From contig JAICJH010000006.1 in NCBI GenBank assembly GCA_025928545.1, positions 1 to 64,000 of the forward strand: a stretch of 64,000 nt of DNA, written 5' to 3'. The stretch is from Bryobacteraceae bacterium. Lineage in GTDB: Bacteria; Acidobacteriota; Terriglobia; Bryobacterales; Bryobacteraceae. A program made the position numbers and the translations under genes. Positions 2,941 through 9,819 of this stretch are shown piece by piece. Under the pieces are notes generated by a model. The model was not told where the DNA came from. It saw only the letters and a list, made by a program, of their open reading frames with translations, and did not search any database. How positions within the stretch are numbered: position 1 is the first letter of the stretch; each line of letters begins with the position of its first letter.

Positions 2941-3912
2941 TCAACCCGTAACCTGCCGCGCCAGAGCCTCAGTCGCGGCTAAAATTCCGCCGGGACTTCC
3001 TATCGCAATTGCGACTCCAAGCTCAGTTGCCGACGAAGCGACCGCAATCGCTTTCGCCAAAGAGTTCAGCACGCCCAACTGATCCCTGGCCTGCGCAATC
3101 ACCTGCTTCAGGTGCGCCAGATCGTTCTGAATCGCCGCCAACGTGGCGCCGATTGCCTCGGCCGTAAACTGATGCGACTGGGTTTGCAACGTCTGCGCCT
3201 GAACTTTTAGGCTGACCAATTGCTCCTTTGGCGTATAGGCGGGCAAGCCCAACCAATATTCGTCCACCGACATGGAAAAATCGTTGAATAACGCGGCGAG
3301 ACGCCGTGCTTCCGCCGCCGGATCGAATGGAGATAATGTTGCGGTCGATGCCCTTTCAAGATTCCCGTAGTTGTCGGTGCCGTGCGCAACACTCTCGCTT
3401 TGCGATCGTGTTTCGAGGACGCGTTGCCGTAGCGCAAGGTACGATAGGTTGACCGGGGCAGGCAGGATGGTCAGATTACCAGCAGGATCTTTATGCAGCA
3501 GGACGCCTGCGCGTTGGAGTTTTTCCATAAACTCCATCTCTGCCTCGAGCGCCTTGATTTCTTCTATTCGTGCCTCAGCTCCGGCCTTGCGTGACTTCGC
3601 CTCTTTTCGTGCGACGTCGCTCTCAAGAACTCGGCGTTGTAGCTCATTCTCAATCTTGGTCTTTTCTGCGTCTGCGAAGTTCTTCGTCGCCTGGGAGAAT
3701 TCGTGGTTGGCGAGTCCCTCGAGTTTTCTCCTGCCGAGTTCGACACCTTCGCCGAGCACGTCCTTGGGTCGGAGATGGTGCTCATCAGTGAAGTCTGAGA
3801 TCGTTGTGATCGTTTCGAGAATGTGCTGGCCGGATGGTCCCCGCCATTCTTCGGCAAAGAGTGCTCTGACTCGGGCAATCAGTCTCGTGATGACTCCTTC
3901 AGGCGAGGACAT
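2941..3912 (-). CDS. Coiled-coil protein of unknown function, partner of the DUF4062 gene
   Basis: A 323-aa protein I do not recognise. Residues about 50-150 are a charged Glu/Lys/Arg/Ala-rich helix with strong coiled-coil character (for example KIENELQRRVLESDVARKEA). A predicted helical C-terminal half follows, and the last 40 residues are small and hydrophobic (AIAVASSATELGVAIAIGSP), which could insert into or pack against a membrane. The start at 3912 was chosen because GGAG precedes it and because it overlaps the upstream DUF4062 stop by 14 bp, typical of translational coupling. The frame stays open to 4056 without support. The coupling suggests that the two proteins act together. A sensor/effector pair is a guess from this arrangement, not a domain assignment. 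Confidence 0.65.
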   Translation of the reverse strand: MSSPEGVITRLIARVRALFAEEWRGPSGQHILETITTISDFTDEHHLRPKDVLGEGVELGRRKLEGLANHEFSQATKNFADAEKTKIENELQRRVLESDVARKEAKSRKAGAEARIEEIKALEAEMEFMEKLQRAGVLLHKDPAGNLTILPAPVNLSYLALRQRVLETRSQSESVAHGTDNYGNLERASTATLSPFDPAAEARRLAALFNDFSMSVDEYWLGLPAYTPKEQLVSLKVQAQTLQTQSHQFTAEAIGATLAAIQNDLAHLKQVIAQARDQLGVLNSLAKAIAVASSATELGVAIAIGSPGGILAATEALARQVTG

Positions 3913-4588
3913 TGGCAGGCTCCTCAACGAGAACGTCTGCGAGATCGAAATCCATCTGCAGTCCCACACCTCCACACGCGCGAAAATAATCTGCCAACGC
4001 AGCGAGGGTCGTTTGTATCTGATCAGCGGAAAGGTTTGGAGCAAAAGTGATATCAAATGATTCGGACAACGCTCGCGCCGGCTGCGTACTGCCGATAAAC
4101 TCTGCCGTGGCGCTGCGCATGGCGTCGGCTCTGGCTTCCGGCGGAAGATCCTTTATTCGCGATGAACCCAGCACCGACAGTATCTGCGCGGTCAATTCGT
4201 GTGGAGAGTTGAAGTGAATAACAGGGCGCTCGCGTTGGATGTTTGCCACCAAGGCCCCTCTTCGCTTTTCAGTGTCAATATCGAGCGGACACTCACCTTC
4301 CTCTTGGTCTTCCACAAAGACAAGGACCGGCTTGCGATTCTTCATCGCCATTTCGTATTCAGTCTGAGTCCGTGAGATATCGTTCCCCGGTGCCGTTGTC
4401 CCAGGGCGCTTTCCGACGATAATGAGAACGATATCTGCTTCACCAATCAAGCCACGGATGATCTCTCCAATAGGATTCGCGCTGGCAATAACGTGCTCGG
4501 CCATGGTTGGCTCATATCCTGCACGAATGACGGCATTAGCTGCCGCTTCGCGTACTTTGCGGAAAGTTGAGCTGATGAATACACGCAT
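3899..4588 (-). CDS. DUF4062 domain protein
   Basis: A 229-aa protein. The first ~110 residues fit DUF4062: MRVFISSTFRKVREAAANAV at the start, then ADIVLIIVGKRPG and a TQTEYEMAMKNRKPVLVFVE segment. DUF4062 has a TIR-like alpha/beta fold and is usually the N-terminal signalling domain of larger NLR-like (STAND) proteins. Here it stands almost alone with a ~110-aa C-terminal extension of unknown fold (SFDITFAPNLSADQIQTTLA). The downstream gene overlaps it by 14 bp. Accessory location and TIR-like fold make a defence or stress-signalling role plausible, but no effector or nucleotide-binding domain is visible. Confidence 0.8.
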   Translation of the reverse strand: MRVFISSTFRKVREAAANAVIRAGYEPTMAEHVIASANPIGEIIRGLIGEADIVLIIVGKRPGTTAPGNDISRTQTEYEMAMKNRKPVLVFVEDQEEGECPLDIDTEKRRGALVANIQRERPVIHFNSPHELTAQILSVLGSSRIKDLPPEARADAMRSATAEFIGSTQPARALSESFDITFAPNLSADQIQTTLAALADYFRACGGVGLQMDFDLADVLVEEPANVLA

Positions 4589-4711: not shown

Positions 4712-5207
4712 TTACCCGATATTGCCCGACGGGGGAATCGATTGAAACGCCCCCGAGAAGTACAACTGTTGCAGAAAAATAAGGCGCAGTAGATCGTCTA
4801 ACTGGGTCCCGAGCAGCAGTGCGCAGACCCTGATCTCGTGCAGTTTGGCAGACGAAGCTGCAACCTGAAGATACGCTTGAAATGGCGCGGGATCGACCAA
4901 TTCTTCCTCGCTGAAAACTGGCTCCCAGCCGTTAATCAGTAAGAACGTGATCGCCGCGTTAGCCCCCACCCGTTTGTTGCCATCGATAAATGCGTGGTTC
5001 TGGCAGATATGGAACAGGTACGCCGCCCCATCGCAGGAATCGACGTATGCAGGAATTCGCCACTGAATGTCGCCCGAGGCGTAGCGACCGCCGATTCGAG
5101 TCCGACAACATCCCGGAGCCCCAGCGATCCCCGTGTTTCTTGATCTGCTGCTCGTGGATCTCCAGGACCTCGTCCAGACTCAGAAACACGGGCTCCATGA
5201 AAGCCAT
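4712..5207 (-). pseudogene. doc: Doc-type Fic toxin, split by two frameshifts
   Basis: The frames here together encode a Doc (death-on-curing) toxin, a Fic-fold kinase that phosphorylates EF-Tu in the best-studied case. The N-terminal part is MAFMEPVFLSLDEVLEIHEQ; after a -1 slip the next frame gives LRDVVGLESAVATPRATFSG; after a second slip the last frame gives the Fic motif HAFIDGNKR followed by VGANAAITFLLINGWEP. Each slip falls in a run of four G where five would restore the frame (near 5118 and 5028, about 30 codons apart). Restored length would be about 165 aa. The gene lies 9 bp downstream of an AbrB-type antitoxin. Either the toxin is dead or both indels are homopolymer sequencing errors. 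Confidence 0.75.
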
Positions 5208-5216
5208 TCCGATGAT

Positions 5217-5444
5217 CTACTCGGCCAGCTTCCGGAACGCTTTTCCGTATCGCCTGTGCGCCCATTCCTGGGCTGCGTCGAACTTCTTCCGCCGGTCGTC
5301 AGGTCTCGATGGCGCGATGATCAGTTGTTTTCCGTCGGTGCTGACATCAAGCGCCGTCTCGGAATCGATCTTAAGGAGGTCCAGGATGGGCCGGTCAATC
5401 ACCAGCGCGAGACTGTTTCCGTGCTTGGTAAGCTTTTTGACCAT
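5217..5444 (-). CDS. AbrB/MazE-type antitoxin
   Basis: A 75-aa protein with the swapped-hairpin AbrB DNA-binding fold: MVKKLTKHGNSLALVIDRPI, then LLKIDSETALDVSTDGKQLI. This matches the pattern of MazE/PhdA-like antitoxins (K-x-G-N-S at the start). The C-terminal tail is charged and likely contacts the toxin. GGAG precedes the ATG. The Doc gene follows after 9 bp, so the pair forms a toxin-antitoxin operon, probably autoregulated by the antitoxin. The IS1595-type transposon inserted only about 50 bp upstream of this start and may have replaced part of the native promoter. Confidence 0.85.
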   Translation of the reverse strand: MVKKLTKHGNSLALVIDRPILDLLKIDSETALDVSTDGKQLIIAPSRPDDRRKKFDAAQEWAHRRYGKAFRKLAE

Positions 5445-5494
5445 GAGGTGACTCCGTACTCACAATGTATCACCATTTTAGTGGGGGGCTGCTC

Positions 5495-5502
5495 CTCCTC
5501 AG
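5495..5502. repeat. Left 8-bp target-site duplication of the transposon
   Basis: CTCCTCAG directly abuts the left inverted repeat, and the identical 8 bp abut the right inverted repeat at 8871-8878. Eight base pairs is the duplication length known for the IS1595 family. Confidence 0.92.
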
Positions 5503-5526
5503 GGCAATAAATTACTTGGCTAACCA
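5503..5526 (+). repeat. Left terminal inverted repeat of the transposon
   Basis: 24 bp, identical to the reverse complement of 8847-8870. The transposase ATG lies 5 bp inside it, so the repeat probably overlaps the transposase promoter or leader. Confidence 0.93.
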
Positions 5527-5530
5527 AAGC

Positions 5531-6517
5531 ATGGAAGACGTTCAGGCCGTACACGAACCAAAGACACTGCAAGATGCGATTGTTTATTTTTCCGATCTCG
5601 ATAACTGTCTGAAATACGTGGTCCGGAAACGCTGGCCGAACGGCGTAGAGTGCCCGATTTGCGGCTGCAAGGATGTGATCTTTCTCGCAAATCAACGGCG
5701 ATGGAAATGCAGACAGAAACACGAGCGGCGGCAGTTCAGTGTCAAGGTCGGGACGATCTTTGAGGAAAGTCCACTGGGCTTGGATAAGTGGCTGACAGCG
5801 ATGTGGCAGATTGTGAACTGCAAGAATGGGATCAGTTCCTATGAAGTGTGCCGTGCCATGGGAATCACGCAGAAGTCCGCTTGGTTCATGGATCATCGGA
5901 TTCGGTTTGCGCTCGGCATGGGATCTGGTGATAAAATGACCGGCGAAGTGGAAGCAGACGAAACCTTTATCGGTGGCAAGGCACGCAACATGCACGCCCA
6001 CATCCGTACTCGCAAGATCACCGGCACGGGCGGCAAAGATAAAACAGCCGTCATGGGCATTCTGGAACGCGGCAAGGATGGCAAGCCCAGCCGGATGCGT
6101 ACTAGTGTCGTGCCTAATCGTCGCAAGAAGGCGCTACAGGCTGAAGTTCGCGAGCACGTTGAAGCCGGATCGGCGCTATATACCGACGCCTTGAAGTCCT
6201 ACGAAGGACTGGATGAATTCCAGCACCAGGTTGTAGATCACGCTGTTGAGTATGTCCGTGAGCAGGTGCACACAAATGGCTGTGAGAATTTCTGGAGCCT
6301 CACGAAACGAATGCTGAACGGTACGTACGTGAGCGTGGAACCCTTTCATCTGTTCCGGTACCTGGATGAACAGACCTACCGTTTCAATAGCCGGAAACTG
6401 ACTGACGGAGAGCGTTTCGACATGGCGGTACGGGGGATCGTCGGTAAGCGGCTAACGTGGGATCGGCTGACGGGAAAAACCCAGGACGCCGGTTCGCTTC
6501 AGGAGCACCTCTTGTGA
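5531..6517 (+). CDS. IS1595-family transposase
   Basis: A 328-aa DDE-type transposase. The N-terminal zinc ribbon is CPICGC followed by WKCRQKHERRQFS (about residues 40-70). The catalytic core shows the first Asp in GEVEADETFIGGKARN, the second in YTDALKSYEGL, and the last acidic/Asn position in ENFWSLTKRMLNGTYVSVEP, all typical of the ISXO2-like domain. Length matches family members. The ATG at 5531 is preferred over an upstream in-frame start because that one lies outside the inverted repeat. The frame is intact, so the enzyme should be active. It moves the element 5503-8870 together with its passenger genes. Confidence 0.95.
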   Translation: MEDVQAVHEPKTLQDAIVYFSDLDNCLKYVVRKRWPNGVECPICGCKDVIFLANQRRWKCRQKHERRQFSVKVGTIFEESPLGLDKWLTAMWQIVNCKNGISSYEVCRAMGITQKSAWFMDHRIRFALGMGSGDKMTGEVEADETFIGGKARNMHAHIRTRKITGTGGKDKTAVMGILERGKDGKPSRMRTSVVPNRRKKALQAEVREHVEAGSALYTDALKSYEGLDEFQHQVVDHAVEYVREQVHTNGCENFWSLTKRMLNGTYVSVEPFHLFRYLDEQTYRFNSRKLTDGERFDMAVRGIVGKRLTWDRLTGKTQDAGSLQEHLL

Positions 6518-6575
6518 AGCGACAGGGCCGATGCAAGGTGGCTGCGAGATAATAGTTGACAGAGGAGATCGCCAT

Positions 6576-6746
6576 ATGGACACAACGGTTAGCAAGCAGA
6601 TGACCAGAACACAAATTCCAGAAACTCTTCCCCCTATCAGCCTGCACGAGGCAATGAAGAAACTGTTTCGTGATGCGGCGTCGACACATCTCCCGAAACG
6701 GAACGTGCGGACTCCGGCAAGAGTAAATAAAAAGATTGCCAAATAG
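6576..6746 (+). CDS. Small passenger protein of unknown function
   Basis: A 56-aa protein starting MDTTVSKQMTRTQIPETLPP and containing ISLHEAMKKLFRDAA. The remainder is basic (RNVRTPARVNKKIAK). A good GAGGAG lies 8 bp before the ATG, and the stop is 6 bp before the ATPase start, so it is the first gene of a tight passenger operon. I recognise no domain. Size, charge and position suit an antitoxin, adaptor or regulator of the ATPase-nuclease pair, which is inference from context only. Confidence 0.6.
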   Translation: MDTTVSKQMTRTQIPETLPPISLHEAMKKLFRDAASTHLPKRNVRTPARVNKKIAK

Positions 6747-6752
6747 GCACTG

Positions 6753-8072
6753 ATGCGTTATTTGTTCATAGACAATTTTCGCGGATTCTCGAATACGTAC
6801 ATTCCTTTGGTGGATGTCAACTTCTTCGTAGGAGAGAACAGCTCAGGCAAGACATCAATAATTAGCCTTATAAAATTGCTATCTACTAATGAATTTCTTT
6901 ATGCACAAAAGTTTCGTACCGAAGACGTTAATTTAGGTCACTTTCAGGACATAGTAAGTGCTCATTCATCCAAGCGCACTCACTTTAGCATCGGAATCAT
7001 TGACGACTTACCTGGCCCTAGCGCACATCGCGAAGTTTCTCTAACGGCCATGCTGTATACCTTCACGAATCACGGGGGGCTGGCGAGGCTATGTAGCTTT
7101 ACGTCAATCGTTGGGACAACACAGTTGTTCATTCGCATAGACGGTTCCAAAACCTACTTCAAGTCGATGCCGTTGGAAGAAGCGATCACTTTGGTGTCCC
7201 TCAGAAATATAATAATGCCACGGTGGATTAAGGAACGAGACTCAGCCGCGTCTGACTATCAGAGGCTCACCGAGTCAAAGGATAGTCATTATCCAGACCC
7301 TGAGCAGTATCCACTCTATGGTCCATTGATGATGGCAATAGCTCAAACACCTAAGCTCAAAGCCCAAAGCGATCATCCGATTTTTTACGGTCGGAGAGAC
7401 ATTGTATGGATAGCTCCGATACGAACAAAGGCCCAACGAACCTACGACGACATATCACAGGGTGACTTTTCCTCGGACGGTCAACACACGCCATACTTAA
7501 TACGAAGGGTCACGCAGCCCGGCGCTGAAGGGAAGACCTCATTTGACGCATTCATAGGGAAGGCTGGAAAATCGAGCGGCCTTTTTGAGTCAATAGAAAT
7601 CAAGAGGCACGGGGAGGATGGAACCGCCCCATTTGAAGTTGACGCCGTACTCGACGGAAGCCCGTTAAATCTGATTAATGTAGGCTACGGTGTGTCTCAA
7701 TCACTCCCTGTGTTTGTCGAGATACTTACGCGCCCCAAGGGGAGTTGGTTTGCTATTCAACAACCCGAAGTGCATTTACATCCACGGGCACAGGCATCGC
7801 TAGGGGACGCGTTCTTTGAGATGGCCGTTGCGGACAATAAACGTTTTCTGATTGAGACGCACAGCGATTTCACGATAGATCGTTTCAGGATGAACTACAG
7901 GCAGCCAGGAACCAAGAAGCCAGATAGTCAGATATTATTTTTTGAACGGCGCGATAGGCATAATACCGTCCATTCACTGCCCATAAATGCACAAGGTGAA
8001 TTGCCGTCGGACCAGCCAGACAGCTATCGGCATTTCTTCCTCGCCGAAGAAATGAAGATACTTGGACTGTGA
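6753..8072 (+). CDS. OLD-like AAA ATPase (ABC-type fold), transposon passenger
   Basis: A 439-aa protein with an SMC/ABC-like ATPase fold of the AAA_15/AAA_21 group. It starts MRYLFIDNFRGFSN, has Walker A GENSSGKTS at residues 27-35, a signature-like GYGVSQSLPVFVEIL near residue 310, a Walker B region FAIQQPEVHLHP near residue 335 (Gln replaces the usual Asp while the catalytic Glu stays, as in the DUF3696-like clade), and a switch His in ETHSD. No TOPRIM or other nuclease domain follows, unlike GajA or OLD. The next gene begins 4 bp later and encodes a PIN-like nuclease, which could supply the missing catalytic part. Paired ATPase and nuclease genes of this kind (Septu and PARIS are analogies) often act in phage defence. 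Codon use is A+T-rich compared with host genes. Confidence 0.88.
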   Translation: MRYLFIDNFRGFSNTYIPLVDVNFFVGENSSGKTSIISLIKLLSTNEFLYAQKFRTEDVNLGHFQDIVSAHSSKRTHFSIGIIDDLPGPSAHREVSLTAMLYTFTNHGGLARLCSFTSIVGTTQLFIRIDGSKTYFKSMPLEEAITLVSLRNIIMPRWIKERDSAASDYQRLTESKDSHYPDPEQYPLYGPLMMAIAQTPKLKAQSDHPIFYGRRDIVWIAPIRTKAQRTYDDISQGDFSSDGQHTPYLIRRVTQPGAEGKTSFDAFIGKAGKSSGLFESIEIKRHGEDGTAPFEVDAVLDGSPLNLINVGYGVSQSLPVFVEILTRPKGSWFAIQQPEVHLHPRAQASLGDAFFEMAVADNKRFLIETHSDFTIDRFRMNYRQPGTKKPDSQILFFERRDRHNTVHSLPINAQGELPSDQPDSYRHFFLAEEMKILGL

Positions 8073-8076
8073 CCTC

Positions 8077-8637
8077 ATGTGCGTAATCATTGACACCGTG
8101 TGTTTCCCCAAGGTTTTCGATCCAACAAACGCCCAACACGAGAGGTTTCAGCCGGTATTTGCGTGGGTGATGGATGGCGGCGGAAGTATTGTTTTCGGCG
8201 GAACGAAGTACCGAACTGAGATTTGCGAGCGCATCAGGAGATTCGGCAGATTACTTGTCGATCTTGAACGGAAAAATCGGTTGGTTAGACTCAACGACTC
8301 ACGCGTGGATGCGACAGAAGCCAAGTTAAAGGAACTCGAACCTTGCAAAGAGTTTAATGACGCACACATAGTGGCGATGGTGATAGTGTCAAAGTGCTGT
8401 GTCGTGTGTACTGACGATATAGAGTCACTTCCCTACTTGGCGGATCGCAGGTTCTATCCGAGGGGGACCAAACCTCCGCATGTCTATCACGCTAAGGATC
8501 ATGCTGGATTGTGTTGCGGCAAGTACATGGCGGACATATGTCGTGCGCGTCCAGCCGTATCGCATGGTCCGAACAAAAGAAAACCGAAGGCGAGACCAAA
8601 GGCAGCCCACGGAAACACCAGAAGGAGACGCCGATGA
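8077..8637 (+). CDS. PIN-like nuclease, transposon passenger
   Basis: A 186-aa protein with PIN-domain hallmarks: MCVIIDT at the start (first metal-binding Asp at residue 6), a conserved FGGTKY segment near residue 42, and NDAHIVAMVIVSKCCVVCTDD near residues 100-120 with the later acidic residues. PIN domains are metal-dependent RNases and are the toxic half of VapBC pairs. The C-terminal ~40 residues are strongly basic (NKRKPKARPKAAHG) and may bind nucleic acid. The ATG lies 4 bp after the ATPase stop. Its own stop overlaps the next start as ATGA. The fixed order suggests that the ATPase controls or delivers the nuclease; the target is unknown. Confidence 0.8.
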   Translation: MCVIIDTVCFPKVFDPTNAQHERFQPVFAWVMDGGGSIVFGGTKYRTEICERIRRFGRLLVDLERKNRLVRLNDSRVDATEAKLKELEPCKEFNDAHIVAMVIVSKCCVVCTDDIESLPYLADRRFYPRGTKPPHVYHAKDHAGLCCGKYMADICRARPAVSHGPNKRKPKARPKAAHGNTRRRRR

Positions 8638-8831
8638 AGCCACTAGCGGCCCCCGTCGTACCTGGAGACACGGACTGGGAGCGATTCGACAATGCCGTCA
8701 GCATGGTTCTCAAAGTTCCAAAGGCCGCAATGCTCGCGGACGACGCTAAACGGAAAGCAAAGTTCCGAAGGAAGCGGGCGAGGGCGAAGAAAGCTGAAGC
8801 GACAGCTACGAATTCAAATCTATACCATTAA
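8634..8831 (+). CDS. Small basic protein overlapping the PIN-like gene, possible antitoxin
   Basis: A 65-aa protein. It contains WERFDNAVSMVLKVPKAAML, a short helical motif similar to those in small proteins encoded beside PIN toxins, followed by a Lys/Arg-rich tail (KRKAKFRRKRARAKK). AAGGAG precedes the ATG, which overlaps the nuclease stop as ATGA, so translation is coupled. An antitoxin or nucleic-acid-binding partner of the nuclease is the most natural reading, but no database-level family assignment can be made from sequence alone. It is the last gene before the right end of the transposon. Confidence 0.65.
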   Translation: MKPLAAPVVPGDTDWERFDNAVSMVLKVPKAAMLADDAKRKAKFRRKRARAKKAEATATNSNLYH

Positions 8832-8846
8832 AATCCCAGTACGAAA

Positions 8847-8870
8847 TGGTTAGCCAAGTAATTTATTGCC
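8847..8870 (-). repeat. Right terminal inverted repeat of the transposon
   Basis: Reverse complement of 5503-5526 with no mismatch over 24 bp. It begins 15 bp after the stop of the last passenger gene. Confidence 0.93.
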
Positions 8871-8878
8871 CTCCTCAG
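8871..8878. repeat. Right 8-bp target-site duplication of the transposon
   Basis: CTCCTCAG, identical to 5495-5502. Confidence 0.92.
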
Positions 8879-8880
8879 AG

Positions 8881-8910
8881 CATCGGCGTGAATCGGCGTG
8901 CATCGGCGGC
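8881..8910. repeat. Three imperfect 10-bp tandem units
   Basis: CATCGGCGTG, AATCGGCGTG and CATCGGCGGC follow one another directly. Low-complexity spacers of this kind are common between genes in GC-rich bacteria. No function is implied. Confidence 0.5.
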
Positions 8911-8943
8911 CATTACGAATTTCCCCCAAACCCAAACCCCCGT

Positions 8944-9054
8944 TCACAACAATTTTCGCCAATGGATTCAACAACATAACTATCCAGCCCCAACCCCCTC
9001 AGTGCATAATCGTGGCAGATTATGGCACTTTCAGACAAACAACTAGCCGCGAAC
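8944..9054 (+). repeat. 111-bp direct repeat, copy B
   Basis: This is the intact counterpart of 2554-2664. It covers the upstream region of the 9022 gene and its first eleven codons. The non-coding part is as conserved as the coding part, so the two copies share a recent origin or the leader is functionally constrained. Confidence 0.8.
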
Positions 9055-9819
9055 CGGGCCAACGCGCAGAAATCCACTGGCCCCACCTCCGTTATCGGGA
9101 AACGTAACTCTTCCCGTAACTCCCTGAAACACGGACTCCTCAGCGACATCATCCTGATCAACGGCGAATCCGCCGAGCGTCTCAATGAACTCGCCAGCTC
9201 CATCACCGACGAATACGATCCCGAAACTCCCTCCCAGGAAATGATGGTTCAAAACGCCGTCGCCGCCATGTGGTTCCTCATGCGCTGTTGGGCCGTGGGC
9301 GCCGCTGGACTCAACCATGAAATGAAAGTCCAGGCCCCTTCCATGACTGATGAGGATGCCGCCACCCGTGCCATGCTCGCCTTCCGTTCCCTCTGCGACA
9401 ACAGCCGCCATCTCGATCTCCTCAGCCGCTACCAGCACCGCTACGAGCGCCAGTACTTTCGCGCCATCGCCGCCCTCGACAAAATGCGCGACGAAAGAAA
9501 TGCCCGTGCTGAGCGAACCCGCCACCATGAAGAAAACAAACAAGCGGCCGAAATTCCCGAACCCATTTCCAGCCCCCCGGAACCCATCCAGTCACCGCCC
9601 GAACCCGTCCCGGATGCTCCCGACGAAGCGCTCGACGAAATGCCCAACGAAATCCCCGCCGAAAGAAATGCCGGTGCCGAGCGAAGCCGCCACCCTGAAC
9701 AAAACAAACAGCCGGCCCAAATTCCCGAACCCATTTTCACCCCCGACGAACCCGGCCCAGCCGCCCCTGAACCCATAACCCTGGAGCCCGAAGACGGATC
9801 GGATACCCGAAACCCATAA
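9022..9819 (+). CDS. Conserved hypothetical protein with duplicated Pro/Glu-rich tail
   Basis: A 265-aa protein beginning MALSDKQLAANRANAQKSTG, then a conserved SSRNSLKHGLLSD stretch and a helical middle (MMVQNAVAAMWFLMRCWAVG). As far as I recall, proteins with this N-terminus are frequent and multicopy in acidobacterial genomes and have no assigned function. The C-terminal third is Pro/Glu-rich and carries a 78-bp duplication (9493-9570 and 9661-9738), giving two versions of ERNARAERTRHHEENKQ...IPEP. There is no signal peptide. The 5' end is duplicated at 2554-2664, showing that members of the family have recombined at this locus. Confidence 0.7.
   Translation: MALSDKQLAANRANAQKSTGPTSVIGKRNSSRNSLKHGLLSDIILINGESAERLNELASSITDEYDPETPSQEMMVQNAVAAMWFLMRCWAVGAAGLNHEMKVQAPSMTDEDAATRAMLAFRSLCDNSRHLDLLSRYQHRYERQYFRAIAALDKMRDERNARAERTRHHEENKQAAEIPEPISSPPEPIQSPPEPVPDAPDEALDEMPNEIPAERNAGAERSRHPEQNKQPAQIPEPIFTPDEPGPAAPEPITLEPEDGSDTRNP

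Follow-up and report, generated by a model that had tools for sequence, protein, structure and literature searches.

A compact IS1595-family transposon carrying an ATPase-PIN gene pair points to a lineage with exchangeable cargo in Acidobacteriota

Introduction

In this work, we characterized a 3,368-bp IS1595-family element located at positions 5503-8870 of a 64,000-nucleotide stretch of contig JAICJH010000006.1 (assembly GCA_025928545.1) from a Bryobacteraceae bacterium, hereafter the window. According to our comparisons, this element is probably one member of a compact IS1595-family transposon lineage in Acidobacteriota, whose backbone is constituted by the terminal repeats, the transposase and a small basic protein named S2; its cargo is a two-gene module coding for a Rad50/OLD-type ATPase and a predicted PIN-fold nuclease, which by analogy most likely functions as an ATPase-gated PIN RNase of the abortive-infection kind. 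We assign a probability of roughly 0.6 to this reading, taking the lineage, the cargo module and the gated-RNase mechanism jointly.

The movement of single defence modules without plasmids or phages has mostly been deduced from islands. In the present case, the vehicle with its ends and the cargo that differs between elements are readable to the base, including two elements within one genome that have the same backbone and different cargo. As far as our literature search shows, three features are apparently new, namely an ATPase-PIN pair as cargo, S2 as a hallmark, and documented differences in cargo between elements of one backbone; among the open-licence papers searched, no title or abstract described an ATPase-PIN cargo in an IS1595 element or the S2 lineage, which is weak evidence of absence. 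Further, the ATPase-PIN pair looks widespread and the defence library searched offered no good match to its nuclease, and the proposal is therefore directly testable.

Structure of the element

The element is framed by perfect 24-bp inverted repeats and by a duplicated octamer, CTCCTCAG, which corresponds to the 8-bp target duplication. The left repeat reads GGCAATAAATTACTTGGCTAACCA and the right one is its exact reverse complement (Table 1); the repeat search returned arms of 26 nt, since the adjoining AG/CT bases pair too. When the 24-mer was searched in the 6.7-Mb home genome allowing up to 3 mismatches, only the two element ends were recovered, with zero matches for the reversed control, and thus the element is present as a single copy; one other transposase relative was found in this genome, displaying 48% identity and internal stops. 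The transposase of the element is intact, matching PF12762 (1.8e-40), PF12760 (3e-9) and NCBIfam NF033547 (2.5e-52), all above the curated cut-offs, and the element combines the traits of the IS1595 family, namely a DDE transposase with a zinc ribbon, short inverted repeats and an 8-bp duplication. Five genes follow one another on the + strand, in the order transposase, S1, ATPase, PIN and S2, and scans for promoters and terminators gave signals at or below chance. All these results confirmed the proposal of the initial annotation, made from the sequence alone, of a complete IS1595-type transposon with base-resolved ends, an intact transposase and genes facing one direction.

A shared backbone among related elements

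From the 151 genomes searched, we retrieved the 40 top-scoring transposase matches that lie in genomes other than the home genome, together with their flanks. Both ends were resolved in 31 of these 40 relatives, which together with the window element constitute the end-resolved set (n=32); L060, L070, L071, L073, L077, L080, L086, L088 and L089, several of them at early contig ends, lack resolved ends and stay outside it. An exact 8-bp duplication was present in 26 of the 32 elements (window included), with the boundary of each element picked within 6 bases by a score that includes the duplication. Furthermore, in each of the 32 elements a distance of no less than 852 bp separates the end of the transposase match from the right end.

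S2 is a near-constant companion of the transposase in these elements. A profile partly trained on the same elements recognized an S2 relative in 31/32 of them and none in their flanks, and a profile built from six seeds only (five from the 32) recognized 19/32, again with none in the flanks. The exception, L092, carries a similar 53-aa open reading frame (ORF) that is visible without a profile match. The right flanks used as control were of full length in 26/32 elements, shorter in 5 and absent in L057, and comprised 52,212 bases versus 59,720 of cargo; the left flanks contributed a further 28,341 bases. The ratio of nonsynonymous to synonymous substitution (dN/dS) of S2 was low in four pairs (0.05-0.09), with synonymous sites near saturation in three. 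In the group of the window element, S2 is encoded on the same strand as the transposase and close to the right end; in other groups it lies beside the transposase. Its basic tail, often RGPKRK, is AT-hook-like by eye. Because its relatives occur in nearly all elements with unrelated cargo and in none of the flanks, S2 is a vehicle gene rather than cargo, i.e., a near-constant backbone gene of the transposon lineage.

A zinc-ribbon-like small protein of ~94-117 aa was also observed in L063, L064 and L067 (and in L075), accompanied by different main cargo; the copies of L064 and L067 match at 39% and the others were recognized by eye, and the protein may represent an additional accessory gene.

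Different cargo on related backbones

Closely related backbones carry different cargo. The transposases of the window element and L055 are sisters on the 32-element tree (80% identity, support 99/87), and no blastp match at 1e-4 was obtained between their cargoes. Both this pair and L057/L061 share the transposase and S2 blocks, with unrelated DNA in between. Likewise, L082 and L083, found in one genome, share a 1.2-kb backbone of 85.7% DNA identity (left end, transposase and S2), outside which no DNA match at 1e-10 was obtained.

Cargo with an above-cut-off Pfam match was recognized in 14/32 elements, in a scan that covered three short cargo proteins and 47 of the 56 longer ones predicted, most short ORFs lying outside it. 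The families comprise AAA_15/21 (window), SocA/Panacea, C5 methylase, GmrSD, HEPN, HNH, DUF3800, DUF4145, DUF1828, DUF7689 and WapI, and matches to HEC-06/Orf5, NsnA, PD-T4-2_A, SspE, type II enzymes and others were found with PADLOC profiles among 52 cargo proteins. DUF3800 cargo (6 rows, of which 4 exceed the Pfam cut-off, L057 falls short of it and L094 was assigned by similarity) lies on scattered branches and required 4 changes on the transposase tree versus a shuffled mean of 4.2; the corresponding values were 2 versus 2.9 for DUF262 and 2 versus 2.0 for SocA. Taken together, these comparisons of sequence indicate a vehicle that appears to exchange its cargo, with different short modules between the same kind of ends.

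Two unrecognized cargoes recur within the set: a gene pair (~221-231 and 153-160 aa) common to L061 and L062, and a protein of ~270-282 aa common to L055, L078 and L081, which lie on distant transposase branches.

Predicted ATPase and PIN proteins

The ATPase matches the Pfam families AAA_15 (1.8e-23) and AAA_21 (1.4e-14), and among PADLOC profiles its best match is NsnB (8.2e-41), with AriA (3.3e-26), Old and GajA also matching. It displays the motifs GENSSGKT (27-34), GYGVSQ (311-316), QQPE (336-339) and THSD (369-372), of which the first is the Walker A motif. The structure model (mean predicted local distance difference test, pLDDT, of 88.6) has no long coiled coil, and Foldseek recovered Rad50, SMC heads, GajA, PtuA and Septu with E values no higher than 1e-8. 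No Toprim family was present among the Pfam and NCBIfam matches, and only ~67 residues follow the THSD motif. A true OLD nuclease was therefore rejected, given an ABC ATPase head and no Toprim in 439 aa, and the protein is best described, from its sequence and model, as a Rad50/OLD-type head without Toprim.

The product of the next gene is a predicted PIN-fold nuclease with an acidic quartet, D6, E48, D95 and D114, invariant in 10/10 aligned members; its RNase activity is putative. Its model reached a mean pLDDT of 81.2, and the Foldseek matches at ranks 3-10 correspond to VapC, PIN or toxin-antitoxin chains (probability 0.93-1.00), those at ranks 1-2 carrying only the descriptions hypothetical protein and gene product. 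By sequence, no Pfam match was above the cut-off (PIN_3 at 0.055), and a profile of the PIN alignment gave no match among solved structures. Thus, the OLD-like ATPase and PIN-like nuclease named in the initial annotation stand as a conflict-type ATPase/PIN pair, with the ATPase differing from a true OLD nuclease.

Distribution of the ATPase-PIN pair

Searching the genome collection with four aligned ATPases yielded 59 ATPase loci, which constitute a sample, since the search rests on two short conserved peptides. They span Acidobacteria, Bacteroidetes, Nitrospirae, Spirochaetes, Proteobacteria and others. Inspection of the neighbours of these ATPase relatives revealed the pairing: a PIN gene lies directly 3' of the ATPase at 55/59 loci, the misses being L133, where the ATPase is complete and none was found, and L144, L146 and L150, where a contig end truncates the ATPase. 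A match to the window-type transposase was found near the ATPase in two Bryobacterales only and was absent from 57/59 loci (flanks of at most 6 kb, often shorter), and the ATPase and PIN genes keep the same order without such a transposase at 53/59 (the 55 with PIN less the two Bryobacterales), an arrangement of the kind that the initial annotation had named as a refutation. This distribution suggests a widespread module that was captured by the transposon and is not defined by it.

In a set of 101 genomes (home plus 100 relatives), an ATPase match at 1e-20 was present in 10. The two closest ATPases after the one of the window (64% and 54%) adjoin relatives of the same transposase, with PIN downstream; these same-cargo relatives are Bryobacterales palsa_243 (L005/L095) and bog_234 (L006/L096), and one same-cargo relative shares its genus with the home genome. 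In bog_234, the contig starts inside the transposase and a matching right-end repeat is visible by eye after S2. In palsa_243, a C-terminal transposase remnant, a poor right end and an S2 match of 21 residues only accompany open ATPase and PIN genes, and hence the cassette seems to outlive its vehicle there.

Counterparts of S1 were confined to the two other transposon-linked copies, with 21-27% protein identity among the three, and no consistent small gene was found 5' of the other ATPases (52 loci). The initial annotation had proposed that four passengers move as one unit. Such a four-gene cargo unit was rejected, considering that S2 accompanies unrelated cargo as a backbone gene and that S1 is weakly conserved; the conserved mobile module is constituted by two genes, ATPase and PIN.

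Among the neighbours of 37 ATPase loci of at least 11 kb (142 of 145 proteins, three very long ones left out), PADLOC matches at 1e-20 included RtcR-CARF, type IIG and IV restriction, HerA, SIR2 and AbiEii, in a scan made without a control set. Separately, in a different family of this order, an ATPase-PIN pair is immediately preceded by a fragment resembling an IS1595 transposase at 25% identity (L023:4029-4571), which may represent an independent capture.

Proposed function and alternative explanations

In the mechanism that we favour, the backbone would move by ordinary IS1595 transposition, making 8-bp target duplications, and the ATPase would keep the PIN protein inactive within a complex. 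A sign of phage infection would alter the nucleotide state of the ATPase, the PIN protein would be freed or activated, and it would then cut RNA (tRNA or rRNA, as suggested by its VapC-like fold), stopping growth or phage production. The abortive-infection RNase is favoured because PARIS offers a parallel, its AriB nuclease cleaving tRNA during immunity (PMC12409363). The reading also draws on the PADLOC matches among the neighbours of the ATPase loci and on the GmrSD, restriction-modification, SocA/Panacea, HEPN and HNH genes carried by fellow elements.

Several results weigh against this reading. Regarding the structural matches, the query TM-scores of the ATPase were 0.35-0.45 among the 50 Foldseek rows listed, and the top ten of the PIN protein had E values of 0.002-0.041 (none below 0.001) with query TM-scores of 0.42-0.49; furthermore, no PADLOC model fits the PIN protein well, the best match among 10 members being GajB at 0.0062. 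Regarding mobility, no site joining both flanks was found in the genus genomes or in the home genome, and the empty site with a single CTCCTCAG that the initial annotation had proposed to look for was not found. The same cargo between the same repeats was also to be looked for; the cargo was located beside transposase relatives in the two Bryobacterales mentioned above, neither with both ends present, and no second copy of the ATPase-PIN cargo bracketed by both ends was found. The window PIN gave no match among plasmids and phages, in a search with one sequence that also misses distant relatives. Regarding cargo exchange, L082 and L083 both encode a GmrSD_N (DUF262) protein (24% identity over 86 aa, E 0.001), and hence their cargo has diverged inside a single broad class and is not wholly unrelated. 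Over the C-terminal 53 aa of the transposase, identity to the window was 87% for bog_234 and 79% (over 47 aa) for palsa_243, versus 84% for L055 and 83% for L057; copies with the same cargo show scarcely more identity to the window element here than copies with other cargo do, so that cargo does not simply follow the transposase. Finally, many neighbours of the ATPase loci are ordinary genes, and in 18/32 elements none of the scanned cargo proteins matched a Pfam family above the cut-off; the notion of a defence vehicle therefore rests on a minority of elements.

Among the alternatives, the one that survives best is an addiction (toxin-antitoxin) module, in which a PIN toxin and an antidote, either the ATPase or a small protein, would prevent loss of the transposon. 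The nearest folds of the PIN protein are VapC-type toxins, the operon is compact with an ATGA overlap between PIN and S2, and SocA/Panacea antitoxin domains occur in two fellow elements, all of which would suit such a module. Nevertheless, S2 is unlikely to be a dedicated antidote, considering its unrelated cargo elsewhere and that its profile, applied to the ATPase together with 1.5 kb on its 5' side and 2 kb on its 3' side, matched 2/59 loci, both transposon-linked Bryobacterales; S1 is poorly conserved, neither small protein has a VapB-like Pfam match, and an ABC ATPase of 439 aa as a plain antidote is, to our knowledge, unusual. We thus consider this explanation unlikely.

Still less likely is a restriction-like DNA nuclease, where the ATPase would load on DNA ends or structures in the manner of Rad50 or GajA and the PIN protein would cut or nick DNA. 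PIN-fold enzymes include DNA-cutting flap endonuclease (FEN) relatives, and the fold matches of the ATPase are led by Rad50 and SMC heads, with GajA among them; against this, the fold rows of the PIN protein are mostly VapC-type, including VapC20, described as a toxin cleaving the sarcin-ricin loop, and the ATPase model lacks the long coiled coil. A non-defensive stress or RNA-processing module captured by chance, with no gain for the transposon, would agree with the ordinary neighbours and unrecognized cargo noted above, but it is highly improbable in view of the patchy occurrence across distant phyla, the conflict-type cargo of fellow elements, and the window PIN having matched, as a single sequence at E 0.001, only its own genome among 297 of the phylum.

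Beyond the ATPase-gated RNase itself, a broader proposal can be put forward tentatively, as a possibility we hold to be rather doubtful: these elements may form an unrecognized, S2-marked miniature IS1595 lineage dedicated to cargo exchange, with S2 acting in transposition or segment swapping and one conflict module carried at a time (ATPase-PIN, GmrSD, restriction-modification, SocA/Panacea or DUF3800) through Acidobacteriota, and the ATPase-PIN pair might be an uncatalogued anti-phage system of many phyla.

Comparison with known systems

Two-gene ATPase-nuclease defences are already established. As in PARIS (AriA-AriB), a separate OLD-type ATPase gene lies beside a small nuclease gene and the AriA profile matches the ATPase; however, the effector of the element is PIN-fold and that of PARIS, AriB, is Toprim. 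The two-gene logic is also that of Septu and the retron-associated PtuAB, with PtuA and Septu among the fold matches, but the effector of these systems is an HNH protein, in place of which the element has PIN. The PIN fold and the four acidic residues are shared with VapC-type toxins, which are paired with a VapB antitoxin rather than with an ABC ATPase. NsnB of Menshen (NsnABC) is the best PADLOC match of the ATPase; in contrast to the Menshen make-up (PMC10952713), the five element proteins include no match to a DUF262 or OLD/Toprim-type partner, and carry PIN instead. Membership in Menshen, PARIS or Septu was rejected, as the partner genes differ.

Concerning the vehicle, passenger-carrying IS1595 members are established as 'transporter IS' (Siguier et al., 2009, cited in PMC3129680). 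The transposase family, the 8-bp duplication, the short inverted repeats and the passengers unrelated to transposition agree with that description; unlike it, we describe a coherent lineage with extra sequence in 32/32 elements, differing cargo among close relatives and a near-constant S2, the 2009 element list lying outside this comparison. Exchangeable defence genes on a transposon are a trait shared with Tn7-like elements with defence cargo (a title cited in PMC8987985), compared with which the present vehicle is far smaller, each element having a single DDE transposase and a short stretch of cargo.

Coordinates and genomic surroundings

Table 1. Features of the element and its target duplication in the window.
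Feature	Position	Strand	Evidence
Left target duplication copy, CTCCTCAG	5495..5502	.	sequence
Left terminal inverted repeat, 24 bp, perfect	5503..5526	+	sequence, repeat search, genome-wide 24-mer count
IS1595-family DDE transposase, 328 aa, N-terminal zinc ribbon	5531..6517	+	PF12762, PF12760, NF033547
S1, 56-aa small ORF 5' of the ATPase, coding status uncertain	6576..6746	+	ORF calling, comparison of copies
ABC/Rad50-OLD-type ATPase, 439 aa	6753..8072	+	Pfam, PADLOC, alignments, structure model, Foldseek
Predicted PIN-fold nuclease, 186 aa	8077..8637	+	alignment, structure model, Foldseek
S2, small basic protein of 65 aa, gene overlapping that of PIN by ATGA	8634..8831	+	relatives across elements, dN/dS
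Right terminal inverted repeat, 24 bp, perfect	8847..8870	-	sequence, repeat search, genome-wide 24-mer count
Right target duplication copy, CTCCTCAG	8871..8878	.	sequence

The left flank of the element (4900-5494) matches 8 other genomes among 19 of the genus, none of these matches coming closer to the duplication than ~20 bp. The right flank (8881-9800) has a 92%-identical paralogue elsewhere in the home genome (C57), which begins just past the duplication, and opens with a motif of ~33 bp recurring many times in this genome. On the - strand at 4712-5444, a stretch with matches in other genus genomes, an AbrB-like antitoxin ORF (5217-5444) lies beside a Fic/Doc-like gene apparently split over frames (4959-5207 and 4712-4969), both names being given by reading the sequence. 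Further upstream, two overlapping ORFs in different frames on the - strand (2941-4588) are possibly a single frameshifted gene; the one starting MRVFISSTFRKVREAA presumably resembles DUF4062 proteins.

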